From contig NZ_LR593886.1 in assembly GCF_901538265.1 (NCBI RefSeq), positions 8,825,738 through 8,889,737 of the forward strand: DNA of 64,000 nt, written 5' to 3'. Position numbers and translations under genes: made by a program. Of this stretch, positions 52,717 to 64,000 are shown piece by piece. The stretch is from Gemmata massiliana (GTDB taxonomy: Bacteria > Planctomycetota > Planctomycetia > Gemmatales > Gemmataceae). The notes beneath the pieces are model-generated. The model searched no databases. It was given only the letters and a program-made list of their open reading frames with translations, and was not told the DNA's origin. How positions within the stretch are numbered: the stretch's first letter is position 1; every line of letters starts with the position of its first letter.

Positions 52717-52758
52717 CTTTTAATCCGTTGGTCCTGGGTTCGAGTCCCAGCGGGCGCA
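52717..52758 (+). other. 3' half of tRNA-Lys(TTT): integration attachment site
   Basis: From CTTTTAA (anticodon loop, TTT) through TCCGT, the T arm CTGGG-TTCGAGT-CCCAG and the acceptor strand CGGGCGC ending in A, the sequence is that of a tRNA-Lys 3' half. The 5' half is absent: no ACGGA stem or matching acceptor precedes it. A bare 3' tRNA half 116 bases from a tyrosine integrase is the usual sign of an att site. It is not a functional tRNA. Confidence 0.85.
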
Positions 52759-52874
52759 CTGGTATAAGTCCAACTCGGCGAAGCAGTTAAGCTTACCCAT
52801 CGGTGTTCGATGGTGCGGCCAGAGTCAGGGGGTAATTCCGTACCCTACGGAAACCCTCCGTTCTACCGCACTTT

Positions 52875-54071
52875 ATGAACAGAACTCCGAAGCTCTGCCA
52901 CCACAAGGCAGCCCAGCAAGGTTACGTCACCCTCAACGGCAAAGAACACTACCTCGGTTACTGGTCGCGCGACCAGCGGAAGGCTCCACCCGCCGTCCGT
53001 GCCGAGTATGACGCCATCATTGCGAGGTGGCTCGCCCACGGTCGGAAACTCCCCGACGCGATCCCCACAACTTCACCCGTGACCGTGAACGGAATTATTC
53101 TGCCGTTCGTCGAGTACGCAGAGCAACACCACGCAAAAGGGGACGACGGCCGCAGCTCCGAGGTGGGCAACATCAAATCCGCTCTGAAGGTCGTGAGCGA
53201 GTTATTCGGCCGGCTCCCCGCCGCGGAGTTCGGGCCAAAGGCGTTGAAGCATATCCGAGAACGGATGATCGCGCTCGGTTGGTCGCGACCGTATGTCAAC
53301 CAACAAGTGCGGCGTGTGCGTCGCATGTTCAAGTGGGCGGTGTCGGAGGAGTTGGTTCCCGTCACGGTTCACCAGTCCCTTGCAACCGTAGCCGGACTCG
53401 CGAAAGGCCGAACCGAGTCACGGGAAACGAAACCAGTTTCGCCCGTGTTGGACCTTCACGTTGTGACGACCCTGCCCCACCTGACACCGACGCTCCGGGC
53501 GATGGTTCTCGTTCACCGGCTGACTGGGTACCGTCCCCAGGACGTCCGGCGGATGCGGGTCGAACAGATCGACCGTTCAACGAAACCGTGGGTGTACCGC
53601 CCTCCCACGCACAAAACCACATACCGTGGCGAGTCTCGCACGGTGTTTATTGGCCCGGCCGCGGCCGAAGTGCTGATCCCGTTCCTCAGTGACCGGCAAC
53701 CCGATGAATTGGTGTTCACACCGGCCCGGTCACGTGCGGAGCGGTATGTGAAGCTGAGGGCGACTCGAAAAACGAAGGTTCAGCCGTCGCAGGTGAGTCG
53801 AGCGAAGAACGCCACAGAGAAGAAACTGAAGGTGCCGGAGATGTTCACGGCCGTGGGATACATCCAGGCCGTGCGGAAGGCAGCGAAGAGGGCGGGAGTC
53901 CCGCACTGGCACCCGAACCAGCTTCGCCACACATTCGGAACCGAGGTGCGGTCGCGGTTCGGGCTCGAAGCCGCCCAGGTGCTACTGGGGCACAAACAAG
54001 CCAACGTGACGCAGGTGTACGCTGAGCGGGATATGACATTGGCCGCGAGAGTAGCCGAACGAATGGGGTGA
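52875..54071 (+). CDS. tyrosine recombinase / integrase
   Basis: 398 residues from ATG 52875. It has an N-terminal Arm/SAM-like region, a core-binding domain (about 70-180), and a catalytic domain with RLTGYRPQDVRRM (Arg), HWHPNQLRHTFGTEV (His-x-x-Arg), LLGHKQANVTQVYAE (His and nucleophile Tyr). It would integrate the element at the adjacent tRNA-Lys end. Length is normal for this family. No excisionase gene is visible nearby. Confidence 0.93.
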   Translation: MNRTPKLCHHKAAQQGYVTLNGKEHYLGYWSRDQRKAPPAVRAEYDAIIARWLAHGRKLPDAIPTTSPVTVNGIILPFVEYAEQHHAKGDDGRSSEVGNIKSALKVVSELFGRLPAAEFGPKALKHIRERMIALGWSRPYVNQQVRRVRRMFKWAVSEELVPVTVHQSLATVAGLAKGRTESRETKPVSPVLDLHVVTTLPHLTPTLRAMVLVHRLTGYRPQDVRRMRVEQIDRSTKPWVYRPPTHKTTYRGESRTVFIGPAAAEVLIPFLSDRQPDELVFTPARSRAERYVKLRATRKTKVQPSQVSRAKNATEKKLKVPEMFTAVGYIQAVRKAAKRAGVPHWHPNQLRHTFGTEVRSRFGLEAAQVLLGHKQANVTQVYAERDMTLAARVAERMG

Positions 54072-54689: not shown

Positions 54690-55013
54690 ATGGCAACGCC
54701 CGAGGATCTTATGGACCAACCGGCTGTTTGGATCGCCGTCGGGGTTGGGCTCGTTGCGGTCTTCGGCGTCGCCATCTATCTCCTGCGACACCACGCACGC
54801 GTAAGAGGGGGCGTTAAGGGGCCATTTGGGTTTGCTGCCGAGGTCGAGGCCGACAACCCTAACCCCGGAGGAAGCATAAACATGAAAGGGGTGACCACGA
54901 GGCGGGGTAGCGTTGTTGCGGCGACCGAGCCGGGCGGGACGATCGGAATGGAGAACATAGACGCCTCACTCGATGTGAAGGCTCGGACGGACGGTGGTGC
55001 GGCAAAAAAATGA
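54690..55013 (+). CDS. small membrane-anchored protein of the STAND operon
   Basis: 107 residues from ATG 54690; a later ATG at residue 8 is possible. One transmembrane helix (VWIAVGVGLVAVFGVAIYLL, about 13-32) is followed by a soluble tail with repeated beta-strand-like units (GGSINMKGVTTRRGSVVAAT, GGTIGMENIDASLDVKA). The stop overlaps the NTPase ATG by ATGA. It may tether or signal to the NTPase at the membrane; this is inference. I do not know a named family. Confidence 0.7.
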   Translation: MATPEDLMDQPAVWIAVGVGLVAVFGVAIYLLRHHARVRGGVKGPFGFAAEVEADNPNPGGSINMKGVTTRRGSVVAATEPGGTIGMENIDASLDVKARTDGGAAKK

Positions 55014-57524
55014 CCGCCCCCGGTGGGGTTAATCATCCCGTCGGGGAGTCTCATGTTACCCTCGAGCACGTTACAGCAGGGCAACACGTCTTTGCGGTTC
55101 AGGGCGATCTCCACCTGACCACCATGTCGGCTGCGGATGTGGCCGACACGGTGGAGGTACAAGCGGTTGACCCTTCCACCCGGGTGTGGGAGCCGGCCAT
55201 CCTCAGTACCCTTCAGCCGGCACAGCACTTCGCTGGCCGTGAGGGCATTCTCGACGACCTCTCCAAGTGGGCCAAGCGGGTTCGAGTCCAAGACCGGGTC
55301 GTCGCTCTGGTAGCTGTTGGTGGAACGGGCAAGACGGCCGTGGCAGAGCGGATCCTCCGTGCTCTTCCGAAGAATCGCAAGGCCGGCGTGTTCGTCTGGA
55401 GCTTCTACGAGAAACCACAGACGGAGGCGTTCCTCCGAGCCACGTGTGATTACTTCTGCGGTACCACACCAGTCACATCGGGCGGACTGCTCGCTCACCT
55501 CCAGCAAGGGCTCCGGGCAGCCGAACTGCCTCACCTTTTGATCCTCGACGGGTTGGAGTTGGTCCAAGCAACCGGGATGACTGGAAAGGCATTGGGAGAA
55601 CTCGAAGACCCACTACTGAAGCAACTACTTCGGTGGCTTGCGTCGGGCCACGGTGGACGGGCAAGAGTGCTCGTTACCAGTCGGTTCCCACTCTCAGATC
55701 TCTCCGACTGGGAGGGCCAAGGATATCGCTCGATCCTTCTCGTAGACCTCGAACCGGCAGCCGCACGATCACTCCTACAGAGGCGGGGAGTCAAGGGCGA
55801 CGACCAGGCCCTCAATGCCTTGGCTGAGAGCGTCCACCGACACGCCCTGACGGTCGATGTCCTCGGTTTGTACCTTAACCGGTTCGGCGGTGGCGATCCT
55901 AACAATGCCCCCCAGTTCGATCTCTCAACGCTGAAAAGCGATCAGAAGGGGGCGCGGTTGACGAGAGTGCTGGAGAGTTATGCCGACAAACTACCACCGG
56001 GAGAGCGTGACCTATTGGCCCGGTTGTCGCTATTCCCTCGCGGGGTCACCGTCGAGTACCTCAGGTTCATCATCGGAGCGGGCCACCACGTCGCAGGTGC
56101 CTTATCCGACTACGGGCCGGTCCAGTTGCTTGGTATGCTGGGGGATCTTCACGATCTCGGGCTGGCGTTCCGCTCAGAGCGGCAAGGAGGGAAGCACGTA
56201 CTCGGCCCACCCATTTCTACGAGACTTTTTCCGCTCCCTCCTCGGCACAACTAAGCCCGAAGATGTCCACGAGGCGGTCCGCGGCCTACTGGCACTCGGA
56301 TTGGAGAGTCGGCCTGGGGCGATCCCCTCTAACCCTGCGACCCGAGACAAATACGAGCAGCTAATCGAGGCCACACACTTGGCCGGGAGGCCGGCCGATG
56401 CAGCGGAATTGTACGCAACATCGCTCGGAGGCGTTTACGTACTGTCTCTCCAAATTGGCGAGAGCTCACGGGGGCTGAGAGTTGTATCCGGCTTACTGTC
56501 TGCTGGCCCTCCGCCGGCTACCGCGTTCGACAGGGCCGGTCTACTAGAAGATCAGGGTTTTTACGCATACATACTGGGCAACCTGATACTCAGCCGCCAA
56601 GCTTACGAAGAATCGGCAGCTCTATTCCGCTCGATTGGAAACCTGTCGAAGCTCGCGAACGTCCTCCGGCTGTGGGCCGACCTCGAACGGACGGTCGGCC
56701 ACTTAACCCGGTCGCGGGAGCTGGCGGAAGAATCTCTGAATATTGTTAATTCATTAAATCAAGATTATTCGCAGATTTTCGCTCACTCGTGTCTGGCTTC
56801 GACCCTGGTCTGTTTGGGAGAGACTCAGCTCGCGCGAGATCACTTTCAGAAGGCTACCGAGCTCGAGCGTCATGAATTGTTTTCTGGTCGCGGGTTCAGT
56901 GAAGCCGAATTGAAATACTTCACAGGCGATGTCGCGGGAGCGCGTCGCCAGACTCTGAACAATCGTGTAATGAGCGAAGAGAGGCGGGTCGAGAGGGATA
57001 TGGCGTTATGCGACAGCTTGCTCGGTCTCTTGACGCTGCACGATTCGGGAGATTTGGCAACCGCGGGCCGACACCTCGATTCGGCCCGAGCATACGCAAC
57101 ACGGTCCGGCCACTTGGAAGTTCAACTACGGTGCCACATACTCGCAGGTCGCATTGAGGCGGCCCAGGAGGCTCTGACTGCTGCTAAGGCCGAGTTCCAG
57201 GCCGGAATCGACTTGGCAGACTCGTGTGAGTTCAAACGTTTGGGGGCGGATCTTCGACTGGAGTTTGCCGCGGTCGGCATAAGGATGGGGGAGCTAAACG
57301 AGGTAATCGCTATTGCCTCCTCCGTCCTGAACTGGTCGGAGTGCGTTGATCATCAATATGAGTGGGGGGCAGCAGATGCCCTCCACCTCCTTGGGGTGGC
57401 CAATGCTCGCCTTGGACAGATCGAAGACGCTAGGACTTACCTCGCTAGCGCTGTCACGAGGCGAATTGGTCTCGGGCACCGTGGCGTCGCCGAGACTAAA
57501 TCTATGCTCCAAGGGCTCGCGTAG
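55010..57524 (+). pseudogene. STAND-type NTPase with TPR-like C-terminus, frameshifted
   Basis: From ATG 55010: a short N-terminal region with TAGQHVFAVQGDLHL, then an NB-ARC/NACHT-like NTPase (Walker A VGGTGKTAVAE, Walker B-like HLLILDGLEL, sensor RVLVTSRFPL, then HALTVDVLGLYL and a winged helix). At about 56198 the frame shifts by one: RQGGKH continues in another frame as YSAHPFLRDFFRSLLG and runs to 57524 through helical TPR-like repeats (RQAYEESAALFRSIGNLSKLA; LARDHFQKATELE). Deleting one G at 56198 restores a protein of about 837 residues. Such proteins act in bacterial conflict or signalling. Confidence 0.82.
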
Positions 57525-57940: not shown

Positions 57941-57964
57941 AAAAGTGGTCGCGCGACCACTTTT
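57941..57964. promoter_or_regulatory. 24-bp perfect palindrome, operator-like (copy 1)
   Basis: AAAAGTGGTCGC followed by its exact reverse complement. It lies 22 bases upstream of the winged-helix gene start and touches the stop codon of the split gene at 57963. A second copy is at 61125-61148. It could be an operator or, for the upstream gene, a terminator hairpin. Confidence 0.75.
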
Positions 57965-58608
57965 AGGGGTACACGGTCGGGTTTCCGCCCAGGATGCCGC
58001 CGGTGATGGCCCCCAGGTTCGGCGTCGACAGGCCACCGGGAGCCAGTCCGTTCCCGGGAATAGAAACTGGAGGGCGTGTCCCACTGCCAAACGGGTCCGT
58101 GGGTTGCTGCCCGACGAGTAAGCCATCGCCCGTAAGCGGGTTCTGTCCACCCGCCTGACCCGCGGGCCAAAGGATATCGTCGGAGAAGTTCCGGGCCGTA
58201 CTCAGTGACACGTCTTGGAGCAGCGGCGTGAGGAACGGCGGGATCGCGGCCGAAACTGAAACCGCGGACGGGTCGATAACGCCATAACTGTAATGCCCGC
58301 CGACCTTGTGAACGGCCGTCACGCCGTCCGGGGATAACTCGACGTTCGAGAGCGTCACGGCCGCGTTTAGTGCAACGAAGTTGGTGTCCCTCGACTCGAA
58401 CGTGGGGAGCACCGGCGGGGCACCGGTTCGCATCGCCACCCAATCGACTTCGAGCGTCATCTGCCCGCCGTGTACGGTCACGGCCTTGGCCTTGCCCCCG
58501 TTCGGACCGACGCCCGTACCGGGCATCATCTTCGTGCCCGTCTCAAAGGCGTAGGACGAAGTGATTTCGTAAGTGTCGTAAGGGGCACGGTCGATGTACG
58601 CCGTGGCT
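57963..58608 (-). pseudogene. 3' part of a 630-residue gene split by an IS
   Basis: This continues the frame of the segment at 59824-61070 after removal of the insertion sequence and one target copy: ATAYIDRAPYDTYEITSSYA, then ETGTKMMPGTGVGPNGGKAK, with strand-rich DGVTAVHKVGGHYSYGVI and a proline/glycine-rich end. The stop is at 57963-57965. No family is recognised. Confidence 0.8.
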
Positions 58609-58618
58609 CCGCGGGCCG

Positions 58619-59823
58619 CAGGGCGTGCGCACTATGAACGGCTGACGGTGTAGGGTTTTATGTCTACACCGAGGGCATCTGGAGGATATCCAATGCCCCT
58701 CGCGCTGACCACGGTGTTTGCGGACCTGCCCGACCCACGGATCGAGACTGCCAACAAGTTGCACCCGCTGACGGACATCCTGGTGATCGCGACGTGCGCG
58801 GTGATCGCTGGGGCCGACGGGTGGGAGGAGATCGCCGAGTACGGACAGAGCAAGGAGGACTTCTTTCGACGGTTCCTCGAACTGCCCAACGGGGTGCCGA
58901 GCCACGATACATTCGAGCGCGTGTTCGCCAAACTCGATCCCGATGCGTTCGCCGACCGGTTCGGGCGCGGGATGCGCGCGTTGTGCGAATCGACGGGGTT
59001 GGTCCACATCGCGGTCGACGGGAAGAGCGCACGGCGTTCGGCCCAAGGCACGTTCACCGGGTGCCTGCACTTGGTCAGCGCATGGGCCACCGAGAGCCGC
59101 CTGATCCTGGGCCAGCGGTCGGTGCCCGAGGGCGGGCACGAGATCACCACGGTGCCCGACCTGTTGGCCGCGCTGAACCTGAACGGCGCGGTGGTGACGC
59201 TGGACGCGGCCGGGTGTCAGAAGGCCACGGTCGAGCAGATCCGCCAGCAGGGTGGGGACTATGTGGTGCGCGTGAAGGGGAACCAGAAGGGGCTGCACGA
59301 CGCCGTGGCCGACGTGTTCGACCGCGCCGGGGGCGCGGAGCTCGCGGGGTGCGACATGGCGGGCGAGGCGGGGGTGGGGCACGGGCGCGAGGAAGAGCGG
59401 TACGTGACTGTGGTCCAAGACCCCGAGGGCTTGCCGGGCGGGTGGACCGATGTCGGCGCGGTCGCACTGGTGTGTCGGGAGCGCCGGGCCAAAGGCCAGA
59501 AGAGCGAAGGCACGGGGCACTACTACATCACCAGCTTGCGCGTGCGCGCGGCGGTGTTGGCGGGTTACATCCGGAACCATTGGGGCATCGAGAATGGGCT
59601 GCATTGGGTGTTGGACGTGGCGTTCCGTGAGGACGATAGCCGCGCCCGCACCGGACACGCGGCAGCGAATCTGGGGATGCTCCGGCGCGTGGCCGTGTCC
59701 CTGTTGACGCGCACCAAGGTCAAAGGCAGTATCAAAACCCGGCGCATGAAGGCCGGGTGGGATGACAACTACCTACTGCAAGTTATCCAAGGAATTACAG
59801 CCTAATAAAGTGCGCACGCCCTG
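58619..59823. mobile_element. ISAs1-family insertion sequence with 10-bp target duplication
   Basis: The ends are 15-bp inverted repeats, CAGGGCGTGCGCACT at 58619-58633 and its complement at 59809-59823. The 10-bp target CCGCGGGCCG appears at 58609-58618 and again at 59824-59833. The element is 1205 bp with one transposase gene. Perfect ends and target copies mean a recent insertion. Confidence 0.95.
58660..59805 (+). CDS. ISAs1-family DDE transposase
   Basis: 381 residues from ATG 58660; a Met at residue 12 (MPLALTTVFADLPDPR) is an alternative start. Family motifs: the opening DPR-type segment, IAVDGKSARRS (first Asp), VVTLDAAGCQKATVEQIRQQ (second Asp), and the terminal NHWGIENGLHWVLDVAFRED (Glu). 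The gene is full length and intact, so the element should be able to move. It fills the insertion sequence and is opposite in strand to the gene it interrupts. Confidence 0.93.
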   Translation: MSTPRASGGYPMPLALTTVFADLPDPRIETANKLHPLTDILVIATCAVIAGADGWEEIAEYGQSKEDFFRRFLELPNGVPSHDTFERVFAKLDPDAFADRFGRGMRALCESTGLVHIAVDGKSARRSAQGTFTGCLHLVSAWATESRLILGQRSVPEGGHEITTVPDLLAALNLNGAVVTLDAAGCQKATVEQIRQQGGDYVVRVKGNQKGLHDAVADVFDRAGGAELAGCDMAGEAGVGHGREEERYVTVVQDPEGLPGGWTDVGAVALVCRERRAKGQKSEGTGHYYITSLRVRAAVLAGYIRNHWGIENGLHWVLDVAFREDDSRARTGHAAANLGMLRRVAVSLLTRTKVKGSIKTRRMKAGWDDNYLLQVIQGITA

Positions 59824-61070
59824 CCGCGGGCCGAGAGTGTGGTTTCGCCGATGTTGAGCGAGAACCCCTGAGCGAGTTCGGCAGCTGCGACCATCTCAGC
59901 GTTGGGCTGTTGCCCGCCTTTTTCGGACCGCAATTCGGTCACGATCACTTCGGCCCGGGCACACGGATCTTTGAACGCCGCGGCCACCAACGCCGTGAGT
60001 CGTTTGCGGATCGGCGGGGCAAGCCCCGGGCGTCCCTCCTGAATGCCGGGCATCTCTCCGACGGTGGGCATCACGGCTGGGCCGGGCGGCTTCCCGATCG
60101 CTGCGGCCACCGCTCCGACTGCCGCTCCCACGAGTCCGGCCCCGAACCCACCCCCGACCGGGGACAGATTCGCCTGCATCCCGACCTGCACAGACGGGGA
60201 CATTAGGTCTTCACTGAACGTACCCCAGACCATCGGGAGCCCGTTCTCGAACCCTTCGCTCCGGAGCTTCGAGTAGCACATCGACAACGCGACGTTAAAC
60301 AGGTCTTTCCGGCTCGTCCCCTTCTGACCGGTAAGCGACAGCTCGATCTGTCCGGTCCGCCGGAACCCGGGCTTGGCGCAGTGGACCGTGAACCGCCCAT
60401 TCGCTTTCAAGGCCGGGAACGGGGGCATATACGCCTGCTCCATATCGTCGAACTCGAACGCCAGTTCGGTCCAGTTCGGATGAAGCGTGTACTTGGCAGA
60501 CTGGCGTTTGTAGTCGCTGAGAATCGGTGGCGTGACCTGATCGCGGAAGTTGTCCGCGGACTGGAGCAAATCGCCCCGCACGACAAGCTTCCCGTGCGTT
60601 TGGATGTGCGAGTAGTTCAACTCGTCGAACGTTTCACTCTGCTCCCAACGCAGGCTCACAACCGGATCAGTTAGTGGGTTGTCTCCGCAGTCGTAGGTCG
60701 AAACCTTGTAGCCCACATCAACGAAGAACGTCCCGGGGTTGATCTCCGTGATCGTGGCCGGCTGAATCGGGGTCGGTCCCAAGTCCGCATCGGGCCGGCC
60801 GTCGGTGGGTTGCCACTGAATGATCGTGGAACCGTTGACACCGTAGTAAAGCGGGCGTCGCGGCATATTCAGCATGTGGCGGATATCGGCGAGCAACAAG
60901 GCCGAGTCCGTGGGGATCACTGTTTGGACAGACGCGATCCCTCGTGCCCGAATCGTGCTCGTATTGCACACCACGTCCATCCCCGACACGGGATCGCGTT
61001 TGGTGTCAAACTGCACCGTAGCGGACTTGAGGAGGTGGAACCGGATGCCGTTGTAGGTGAGAGTGCTCAT
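59824..61070 (-). pseudogene. 5' part of the split gene (element structural-type protein)
   Basis: From ATG 61070 (MSTLTYNGIRFHLLKSATVQ); ATGs at 61076 and 61079 are also in frame. The first 400 residues are strand-rich (TDPVVSLRWEQSETFDELNY), then a glycine/alanine-rich hydrophobic stretch (GGGFGAGLVGAAVGAVAAAIG) and helices. The frame enters the insertion sequence after GETTLSARG. Joined to 57963-58608 it gives 1893 bases, 630 residues, with no stop. It is divergent from the tail-like genes and may be a structural or baseplate-like protein; family unknown. Confidence 0.8.
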
Positions 61071-61117
61071 TACCATCATGGTACGCGATCGATCGCGTAC
61101 CATGATGGTAATGAGCA
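61064..61117. promoter_or_regulatory. 54-bp perfect palindrome over a divergent start region
   Basis: Each 27-base arm, starting TGCTCATTACCATCATGG, is exactly complementary to the other, with the centre at GATC|GATC. It covers the start codon of the minus-strand gene, and mirror-image ATGATGGTAATGAGC faces the plus-strand gene. No spacer is present, so it would form a cruciform or a tight RNA hairpin. Confidence 0.9.
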
Positions 61118-61124
61118 TGCGACC

Positions 61125-61148
61125 AAAAGTGGTCGCGCGACCACTTTC
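61125..61148. promoter_or_regulatory. 24-bp palindrome, operator-like (copy 2)
   Basis: The sequence is the same as at 57941-57964 except that the last base is C. The 22-bp core is perfectly symmetric. It ends 13 bases before the ATG at 61162. Two copies before two starts of one element suggest shared control, perhaps by the winged-helix protein. Confidence 0.78.
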
Positions 61149-61689: not shown

Positions 61690-62231
61690 ATGCTCAACTG
61701 GCTCAAAAAGCGGTGGGTACGTACCCACCGCTCGATCTACCGTTTCCACGACGGCACCAAGACACGGTACGCAGACCCGCTCGTTATTGCGAGGGAGATC
61801 GAGAGCAAGTGCCCGCAATACGCGGACCTGTTCGGGCTGCTCGTGGACGATCACAGTTTCGCGGGCGATTCCGGGCCGGTGGTAGACGATCTGCGTCGCC
61901 AGCAGAAAGAGGCGCTGGCCACGCTCGTGAAAGTATCACGTGAGGTGTTCGGCGTTTCGACCTCACCCGATCCGCTTATGGGCCACGTGCTCACCGAAGC
62001 GGCGAGTTTCAAGCTCCTCGGGGACTGGCTCGTGTGGATGAGCACTGCCGCGGAGGACGCCCGCCCTTTCTTGAACTGGCCGTCTCGGGCCTCACCTTTG
62101 ACGCCGCCCGACTCCCCTACCGACTCGTCTGCGGACTCTGGTTCCATCGAGACGACGTAGAGCGGCGTGAGGAAAAACGGGCGAACCGGATCGCCGGCCG
62201 AATTGCGGCCGAAATCGCACAGGCACTCTGA
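61690..62231 (+). CDS. tail-assembly-chaperone-like gene with -1 frameshift
   Basis: From ATG 61690 the zero frame makes 156 residues ending at 62160. A slippery CCCTTTC sits at 62064-62070 in exact X-XXY-YYZ phase (codons CCT TTC). A -1 slip there reads on as LELAVSGLTFDAARLPYRLV and REEKRANRIAGRIAAEIAQA to 62231, giving about 180 residues. The -1 tail looks like real helical protein, while the zero-frame tail is a S/P/D-rich run. In many phages the two products of this gene (such as lambda G and G-T) bring the tape measure to the tube. A separate gene from GTG 62034 is the alternative. Confidence 0.75.
62064..62070 (+). promoter_or_regulatory. -1 ribosomal frameshift slippery heptamer
   Basis: C-CCT-TTC in the zero frame of the gene at 61690. 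Both tRNAs can re-pair one base back (CCC, TTT). I did not identify a clear downstream stem. The use of the site is inferred from phase and from the coding quality of the -1 frame. Confidence 0.6.
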
Positions 62232-63251: not shown

Positions 63252-63488
63252 CACTTCAAAACGTAGTGGGTGGGAAGTACGATCTCAGGAGCGAGCCAGA
63301 CGATACTGAGCCCTTGACTCGTGGGTTCACTCAATCAGAGTCGATGCAATTTGCGATTCGAGTGCCTCGCCCGTAGCCGGTCACGCTCTTATGGCGTGAG
63401 GCCAACCTTCCCCGGACCGCTACAATCACGTCGACGACATTAACTCGGTCGACCCTCCGATTGCGTGATGTTTCTTAAGGGGAGCTGT

Positions 63489-64000
63489 ATGCAACGCCCG
63501 TACTTCTTGCGACCACCAGTGTTCCATCCCCGCTGGCTACTATCGGCTGTCGCTGCGGTGCTGGTCGTGAGCTCCCTGCACGCCGCGCCACCCGCGTTCA
63601 ATGCCGCGGAAGCCCGGAAAAGTGTCGTGTACATCAAGCGTATCACTCCGGGCTTGGGACCGGCGGTGGGGTCTGGTTTTCTCGTCAGTCACGACGGCCT
63701 GATCTTCACCAACCGGCATGTGGCCCTACCGTCCGATGAGGGGATCAAGGGGTCGATCACCCTGGTCGGTGTTCCTTCCGTCAAAGATCCTGATGTACTC
63801 GACTACTTTCGAGCCGAAACCGTTTACACACCGGAGAAAAAGGAAAACCTGGACTTCGCGGTTCTCAAGATCGAAGCCCGCAAGGACGGGCCGAAGTTCC
63901 GGCCACTGCCGCTCTCCTACGACAAGCTCGACCTCGGGAGCGATGTGGCCGTTCTCGGATACCCATACGTCCAGGAGAATCAGCCCAACTTGTCGTTCAA
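63489..64000 (+). CDS. secreted trypsin-like serine protease (3' end outside window)
   Basis: From ATG 63489 with GGGGAG upstream; the frame stays open to the window edge. A signal peptide follows a positively charged start (MQRPYFLRPPVFHPRW, then LLSAVAAVLVVSSLHAAPPA). The HtrA/S1C-like protease domain starts with VVYIKRI and GSGFLVSHDGLIFTNRHVAL (catalytic His). DFAVLKIEARK carries the Asp, and the Ser lies beyond the edge. It probably acts in the periplasm or outside. It is 237 bases beyond the tape-measure-like gene and may lie outside the element. Confidence 0.85.
   Translation, partial: MQRPYFLRPPVFHPRWLLSAVAAVLVVSSLHAAPPAFNAAEARKSVVYIKRITPGLGPAVGSGFLVSHDGLIFTNRHVALPSDEGIKGSITLVGVPSVKDPDVLDYFRAETVYTPEKKENLDFAVLKIEARKDGPKFRPLPLSYDKLDLGSDVAVLGYPYVQENQPNLSF

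Follow-up and report, generated by a model that had tools for sequence, protein, structure and literature searches.

The window, a stretch of 64,000 nucleotides of the Gemmata massiliana genome (G000), holds the left part of an integrase island carrying a cassette of four putative tail genes: that of a tail-associated protein of about 630 residues, a tube gene, a chaperone gene and a tape-measure gene (Table 1). The chaperone gene contains the heptamer CCCTTTC, whose first C falls on the third codon position of the ORF opening with ATG at 61690. The heptamer is therefore read as C CCT TTC within GCC CGC CCT TTC, and this X_XXY_YYZ phase is the one required for tandem -1 slippage. An earlier reading of this DNA, made from the sequence alone (the sequence-only reading), had placed the heptamer in exactly this phase and predicted a fusion product of 180 residues; both statements hold, with 127 + 53 residues running to 62231 and the 0-frame ending at 62160. 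Most ribosomes would make the 156-residue protein, and a minority would slip back by one base on C CCU UUC to yield the 180-residue fusion.

Table 1. Features of the cassette and the adjoining island in the window (omega, dN/dS of G000 against the larger G012 island)
Feature	Position	Strand	Remarks
Left island end, 45-bp direct repeat resembling a tRNA 3' end	52717..52761		Second copy 27.9 kb on, beyond the window
Tyrosine integrase, inward-pointing	52875..54071	+	PF00589, phrog_1
16-bp palindrome, second exact copy within the window	57945..57960
~630-aa tail-associated protein, C-terminal part	57963..58587	-	Beyond the IS
DDE transposase of the IS splitting the ~630-aa gene	58660..59805	+	PF13808, PF01609
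~630-aa tail-associated protein, N-terminal part	59802..61070	-	Divergent from the tube gene; interrupted by the IS
54-bp perfect palindrome	61064..61117		Between the divergent ~630-aa and tube genes
16-bp palindrome GTGGTCGCGCGACCAC	61129..61144		Upstream of the tube gene; common to other islands and the G002 prophage
Tail-tube-like protein, 170 aa	61162..61674	+	Prophage counterparts downstream of MCP and terminator-like genes; omega 0.13; weak tail-tube fold matches
Putative tail assembly chaperone, 0-frame product, gpG-like, 156 aa	61690..62160	+	Profile homologues in prophages; omega 0.19 up to the shift site
CCCTTTC slippery heptamer	62064..62070	+	0-frame reading C CCT TTC
Predicted -1 frame extension, gpT-like, 53 aa + stop	62070..62231	+	-1 continuation after the site in 7/7 lineages
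Short tape-measure-like protein, 336 aa	62241..63251	+	Homologues in the same position; omega 0.12

The chaperone sequence family is new, and the -1 frameshift of the G/GT type is itself already known. Searches up to E 1 placed the chaperone in no Pfam or PHROGs family, a profile search against solved structures returned only seven matches (E 0.13-0.78), all to unrelated proteins, and neither the chaperone nor the tube protein had a matching record among 50,697 phages.

Conservation of the slippery site

To catalogue homologues of the chaperone, 149 related genomes were searched with the single sequence, giving matches in eight, the window's own genome included. When a six-row profile built from the 0-frame part was run against the 95 genomes of the family, 12 of them gave a total of 19 matches. 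Across the phylum, 392 genomes were sampled, with scoring of a subset of the candidates (11 per genome among the rows listed); this yielded at least one match to the chaperone profile, that of G000 itself. An in-phase heptamer is present in eight of the 19 profile matches, namely those of G000, G012 (two copies), G002, G026 (two copies), G024 and G050. A ninth close locus, the viral contig L045 (IMG/VR 3300046739_000271), was found via its capsid gene and carries CCCTTTA in phase. All nine close loci, which represent seven lineages, thus have CCCTTT[C/T/A] in phase where the conserved 0-frame region ends. The heptamer directly follows a conserved ...RPF end (RPL in G024), and the -1 continuation runs for 36-60 residues (eight loci). 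As a gauge of chance, an in-phase XXXYYYZ is present at 54 of 26,357 codon positions in the genes of seven related loci, and an in-phase CCCTTT at four.

The remaining 11 profile matches lack the heptamer. By eye, neither heptamer nor -1 domain is present in G013, G029, G014 (three copies), G005 or G067 (four copies), and one of the three G014 copies (L041) appears to be out of frame mid-gene; G084 keeps the -1 extension, but has CCCTACC rather than the full heptamer at the expected place. Two of the eight genomes from the single-sequence search were dropped because their weak matches were judged to be chance: G098 (L007), which has no in-phase CCCTTT, and G034 (L008), which also has none, has another in-phase XXXYYYZ and was not matched in the profile search. 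The alignments indicate that close loci keep the signal without exception, and that the majority of distant members lack both signal and domain. The alignment of homologues called for by the sequence-only reading therefore bears it out among close relatives, where site, phase and -1 domain are kept in seven lineages, but not across the wider family.

The slippery site also uses a rare proline codon. The P-site proline is encoded by CCT in all seven lineages, and CCT makes up 1.5-29% of proline codons in these loci; the product of the local CCT frequencies is 1.3e-8, a figure to be read with G000 and G012 being close relatives and hence not fully independent.

Switch of the conserved reading frame

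The copies of G000 and G012 differ at 84 sites up to the end of the heptamer, distributed 23/13/48 over the 0-frame codon positions, and at 24 sites after it, distributed 3/15/6. The peak after the heptamer coincides with the wobble position of the -1 frame (contingency p = 2e-5). Between these two copies, the conserved reading frame switches at the heptamer. In the same comparison the -1 extension has a dN/dS of 0.26, and in the overlap region omega is 0.26 in the -1 frame vs 0.75 in the 0 frame, albeit from small counts. Together with the values for the tube, chaperone and tape-measure genes against the larger G012 island (Table 1), these ratios indicate that the tail genes are under purifying selection.

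Translation of the -1 ORF as a separate protein from an internal start, with no frameshift, would require a start codon such as GTG 62034 in G000. A GTG or TTG does lie upstream in the open -1 frame in six of the seven lineages, and in four (G000, G012, G024 and L045) a candidate is found 30 bases before the heptamer. However, G002 has no such codon at all, the -1 frame is conserved from the heptamer onwards, just where the 0 frame ceases to be, and the heptamer itself, rare codon included, is kept in all seven lineages. We consider separate initiation highly improbable.

Signals that might stimulate slippage were sought in the seven lineages. Downstream RNA folds no better than shuffled sequence (z -0.55 to 0.72), and GGAGG occurs within 20 bases upstream of the heptamer in only three of the seven; the search for a stimulator was thus negative. 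Site, phase, codon-position switch and -1 domain, the comparative tests with a direct bearing on the frameshift, all support it. On this evidence, positions 61690-62231 almost certainly contain the programmed -1 frameshift that the sequence-only reading had proposed for a tail-chaperone-like gene, and would encode a lambda G / GT-type tail assembly chaperone.

The tail cassette and its relatives with heads

The chaperone gene had also been described as lying between tube-like and tape-measure-like genes, and this order is backed by synteny with prophages and the viral contig. The tube and tape-measure assignments follow from that synteny and from position, not from a family model. The tube protein has no Pfam match up to E 1 and a best PHROGs match at E 0.07. 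A scan of the tube alignment against named genomes found no relative, nor did a scan of the G026 and G050 tube proteins against viral contigs. Structure predictions from three-sequence alignments were of low confidence (pLDDT 44 for the tube and 38 for the ~630-aa protein). The fold search with the tube model returned nothing at E <= 0.001; among the first 50 hits listed, 34 by hand count are tail, neck or baseplate chains of phages, gene transfer agents, contractile injection systems or type VI systems, which lends the predicted fold weak support as a tail protein. When solved structures were searched with profiles, the tube, the ~630-aa protein and the major capsid protein (MCP) had no match up to E 1, and PADLOC matched none of six cassette proteins.

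Where the two can be aligned, the N-terminal part of the G000 ~630-aa protein shares 83% identity with its intact counterparts in G012. Since an IS splits the gene in G000, this copy of the cassette may be inactive. At the G012 site matching 61064-61117, a palindrome of different sequence is found, with 17-bp arms and an 8-base loop.

In four relatives (G002, G026, G024 and G050) and on the viral contig L045, the chaperone gene lies near a major capsid gene. The prophage of G002, which is also recorded as IMG/VR 2836862175_000004 (47.6 kb), combines the cassette with small and large terminase subunits, a portal (phrog_113 at E 0; PF06074), a capsid protein and a terminator-like gene. Its MCP family recurs within a few kb of tube and chaperone in G026, G024 and G050. 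For both G026 copies and for G050, a portal match sits 15-18 kb upstream on the same strand, and that of G024 is on a different contig. Neither the MCP profile nor portal phrog_113 has a match anywhere in the G000 or G012 genomes. These data indicate that the four-gene cassette comes from a Gemmataceae phage lineage. The earlier suggestion of a new tail-like particle, made because no phage family was recognised, is right in that the lineage lacks family models, but the same genes also exist in prophages with heads.

By analogy with lambda, the part common to both products would coat the tape-measure-like protein, and the -1 domain would recruit tube subunits. The frameshift carries a well-known tail-assembly rule to a phage lineage of the Planctomycetota that has no family models for its chaperone, tube or tape measure.

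Integrase islands of Gemmataceae

The cassette of the window lies on an island of 27.9 kb between 45-bp direct repeats. Two further tail-bearing islands are found in G012, measuring 25.1 kb (45-bp repeats) and 18.0 kb (53-bp repeats), with their repeats at tRNA-Arg genes; ARAGORN in its bacterial setting detected no whole tRNA at either copy of the G000 repeat. The gene lists for the islands and for G002 were compiled with a simple ORF filter rather than a trained gene finder. Common to the three islands are an inward integrase, the tail cassette, a sigma factor (in the smaller G012 island assigned because it is 85% identical to the copy in the larger), a primase-like gene matching phrog_1829 weakly (E about 1e-5 to 1e-6) and an excisionase-like HTH gene. 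The last (phrog_66, E 2e-7 to 7e-9) is also found in G006. Adjoining the cassette in all three islands and in G002 is a gene whose short product has a hydrophobic stretch.

A fourth island, in G006, is represented by a contig of 18,732 bp. Its integrase, membrane-protein, HTH, ParB-like and sigma genes are related ones, and its primase is a strong match (phrog_13901, E 6.6e-53). No tail cassette is present in the expected place or in the part seen (best profile E 0.28); the contig stops before the right end of the island, so its absence applies to that part and is not provable for the whole.

The G000 island carries two terminase small subunit homologues (phrog_4102, E 4.8e-19 and 1.6e-16), the sole matches in that genome. 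This family has no match in the G012 genome, and also matches in five of 14 control genomes. Two large terminases of another family (phrog_9) are encoded elsewhere in G000, which suggests that other prophages are probably present; these terminases may or may not mark helpers.

Several other genes were observed on and around these islands. At positions 55010-57524 of the window, a gene for an AAA/NACHT-type ATPase precedes a repeat-rich reading frame that is in a different phase, and the two look like a single STAND-type defence gene that has been broken or frameshifted. On the island beyond the window, a HipA-like kinase adjoins a DUF3037 gene (L023:8255-9897), and the pair is more than 90% identical to one in the larger G012 island. 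The G000 island also encodes a trypsin-like peptidase and a subtilase (window 63465-64000 and on; L023:12379-13839), for which BLASTP gave no match in the compared islands or prophages. In G067, tube-like genes and short chaperone-like genes that are not frameshifted occur at scattered loci (L076, L077, L078, L079 and L083), in some cases close to integrase-like genes; these are perhaps a second class of headless tail islands.

These islands resemble phage-inducible chromosomal islands (PICIs) in being integrase islands with att repeats (three islands) and in having no match to the MCP or portal families (G000 and G012). We consider it more likely than not that they are satellite-like elements with a phage-derived tail cassette, which would probably be cargo captured from a phage. 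The islands might instead be decaying prophages that have lost their head genes, with the cassette as a leftover; the IS in the G000 ~630-aa gene would be expected of such decay, as would the lack of island homologues of the G002 terminator-like, 462-aa and 177-aa proteins (all-against-all BLASTP, E 1e-4). Against decay, the same cassette is kept on three islands at different repeat sites, with omega of 0.12-0.19 (0.26 for the -1 extension), and the two G012 copies are identical in DNA for the tube, the chaperone to the shift and the ~630-aa gene, with tape measures 91% identical. Moreover, the G006 island has the same non-tail core with no cassette in the part seen, and the integrases of all four islands point inward, which the accessible text of PMC10111431 gives as a mark of PICIs vs prophages. 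Decay is thus a rather unlikely origin.

A shared palindrome and a CRISPR spacer

The 16-bp palindrome GTGGTCGCGCGACCAC is found in four of the 95 family genomes, with six copies in G000, eight in G012, 33 in G002 and three in G006. Five of the six G000 copies lie in the island, all eight G012 copies lie in its islands, and all 33 G002 copies fall within one 46.5-kb stretch holding the prophage. Scans of larger collections returned 14 palindrome stretches on six IMG/VR contigs, with clustered sites on the G002 contig only, and at least 118 stretches in named genomes; among the 80 listed, only one Gemmata MAG had more than one site per stretch. The shared palindrome links the islands to the G002 phage lineage via a DNA-binding system, regulatory or otherwise, that they have in common. 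It may or may not serve as an operator: when one mismatch is allowed G002 has 44 sites, and only 16 of these precede a gene start by 50 bases or fewer, whereas 24 are within ORFs of the simple list. Allowing two mismatches, the region G002:C1:3623319-3671908 has 54 sites in about 48 kb, some just upstream of start codons and many within ORFs.

The sixth G000 copy lies inside a CRISPR spacer, which suggests that the host lineage met an invader bearing this mark. The full 38 bases of the spacer have no match among the compared loci, the best being 23 bases, in the island. The CRISPR array around G000:C1 3368019-3377362 (L131) comprises 109 spacers with a 36-bp repeat. The palindrome in common with the G002 prophage and the spacer point only indirectly to mobilisation of the islands by a helper, and the only complete phage found with clustered palindromes belongs to another species than G000. 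The clustered palindrome offers a DNA mark for finding further members and candidate helpers.

A palindrome common to the islands and the G002 prophage might also be expected if the cassette were a decoy that poisons the tail assembly of an incoming or helper phage, in the manner of PICI Tai proteins, and satellites are known to carry tail-assembly inhibitors (PMC11364771, accessible text). The Tai systems described there are, however, dedicated inhibitor proteins, and a conserved tail gene set that includes the -1 domain fits a working tail pathway better, making a decoy improbable.

A proposed satellite with its own tail genes

Considered as a whole, the locus is probably best explained as a G/GT-type chaperone on a phage satellite with its own tail cassette that depends on a helper for heads and packaging. 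With no recognised head genes on the G000 island, the satellite would bring the tail cassette itself and would obtain heads and packaging from a helper phage, a dependence suggested by its gene content. That such a satellite supplies its own tails to the particle is a more tentative proposal, to which we assign less than an even chance. A tail tube, a tape measure and a chaperone with a conserved frameshift but no recognised heads might instead belong to a headless, tail-like particle, a non-contractile tailocin deployed against competitors. Fibre, terminator and lysis genes were, however, not recognised among the scanned island proteins, and a mobile element accounts better for the integrase, primase-like and excisionase-like genes and for the terminase small subunit genes of G000; we give the tailocin little credence.

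If the satellite reading is true, satellites can also supply the tail side of the virion, which would change the view of how helper dependence and host range evolve. Tail-supplying satellites could then redirect the host range or the tail length of particles made by the helper.

Comparison with known systems

Long-tailed dsDNA phages have a conserved -1 frameshift in their tail assembly chaperones, as in G / GT of lambda, and such chaperones keep it despite low sequence similarity (PMC5009743, accessible text, citing Xu, Hendrix and Duda 2004). In lambda, according to the same text, the tape measure is bound by the short product and receives its tube subunits through the fusion. The present chaperone differs from lambda G / GT in having no Pfam or PHROGs match, and its heptamer is CCCTTTN.

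Like the Gram-negative PICIs described in the accessible text of PMC10111431, the present islands have an inward integrase and late genes apparently captured from phages, a capture that was proposed there for PICIs with examples; their excisionase-like HTH and primase-like genes, the latter weakly matched in G000 and G012, would be candidate counterparts of the HTH_17/excisionase-like regulator and primase of those elements. The difference is the tail cassette: in the same text, Phage_min_tail and Phage_tail_L have hits in 0/203, 0/923 and 0/273 satellite islands, whereas the present islands do carry one. The G000 island alone resembles the SaPIs, as they appear in the accessible text of PMC12409344, in having a terminase small subunit with no related large terminase on the island; unlike SaPIs, the present islands have no recognised capsid-size genes and do have a tail cassette. 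One satellite with tail fibres has been described (PMC10690885, accessible text), and the titles and opening lines of abstracts listed from the open part of PubMed Central yielded no satellite with a tail-tube cassette and no planctomycete satellite. A further parallel is with the capsid-forming PICIs, which are likewise islands with only one half of the virion genes. As presented in the accessible text of PMC10690885, those elements carry capsid and packaging genes and take tails, whereas the present islands have tail genes and no recognised heads. On the best reading, the tail-cassette islands would be satellite-like elements and the mirror image of capsid-forming PICIs.
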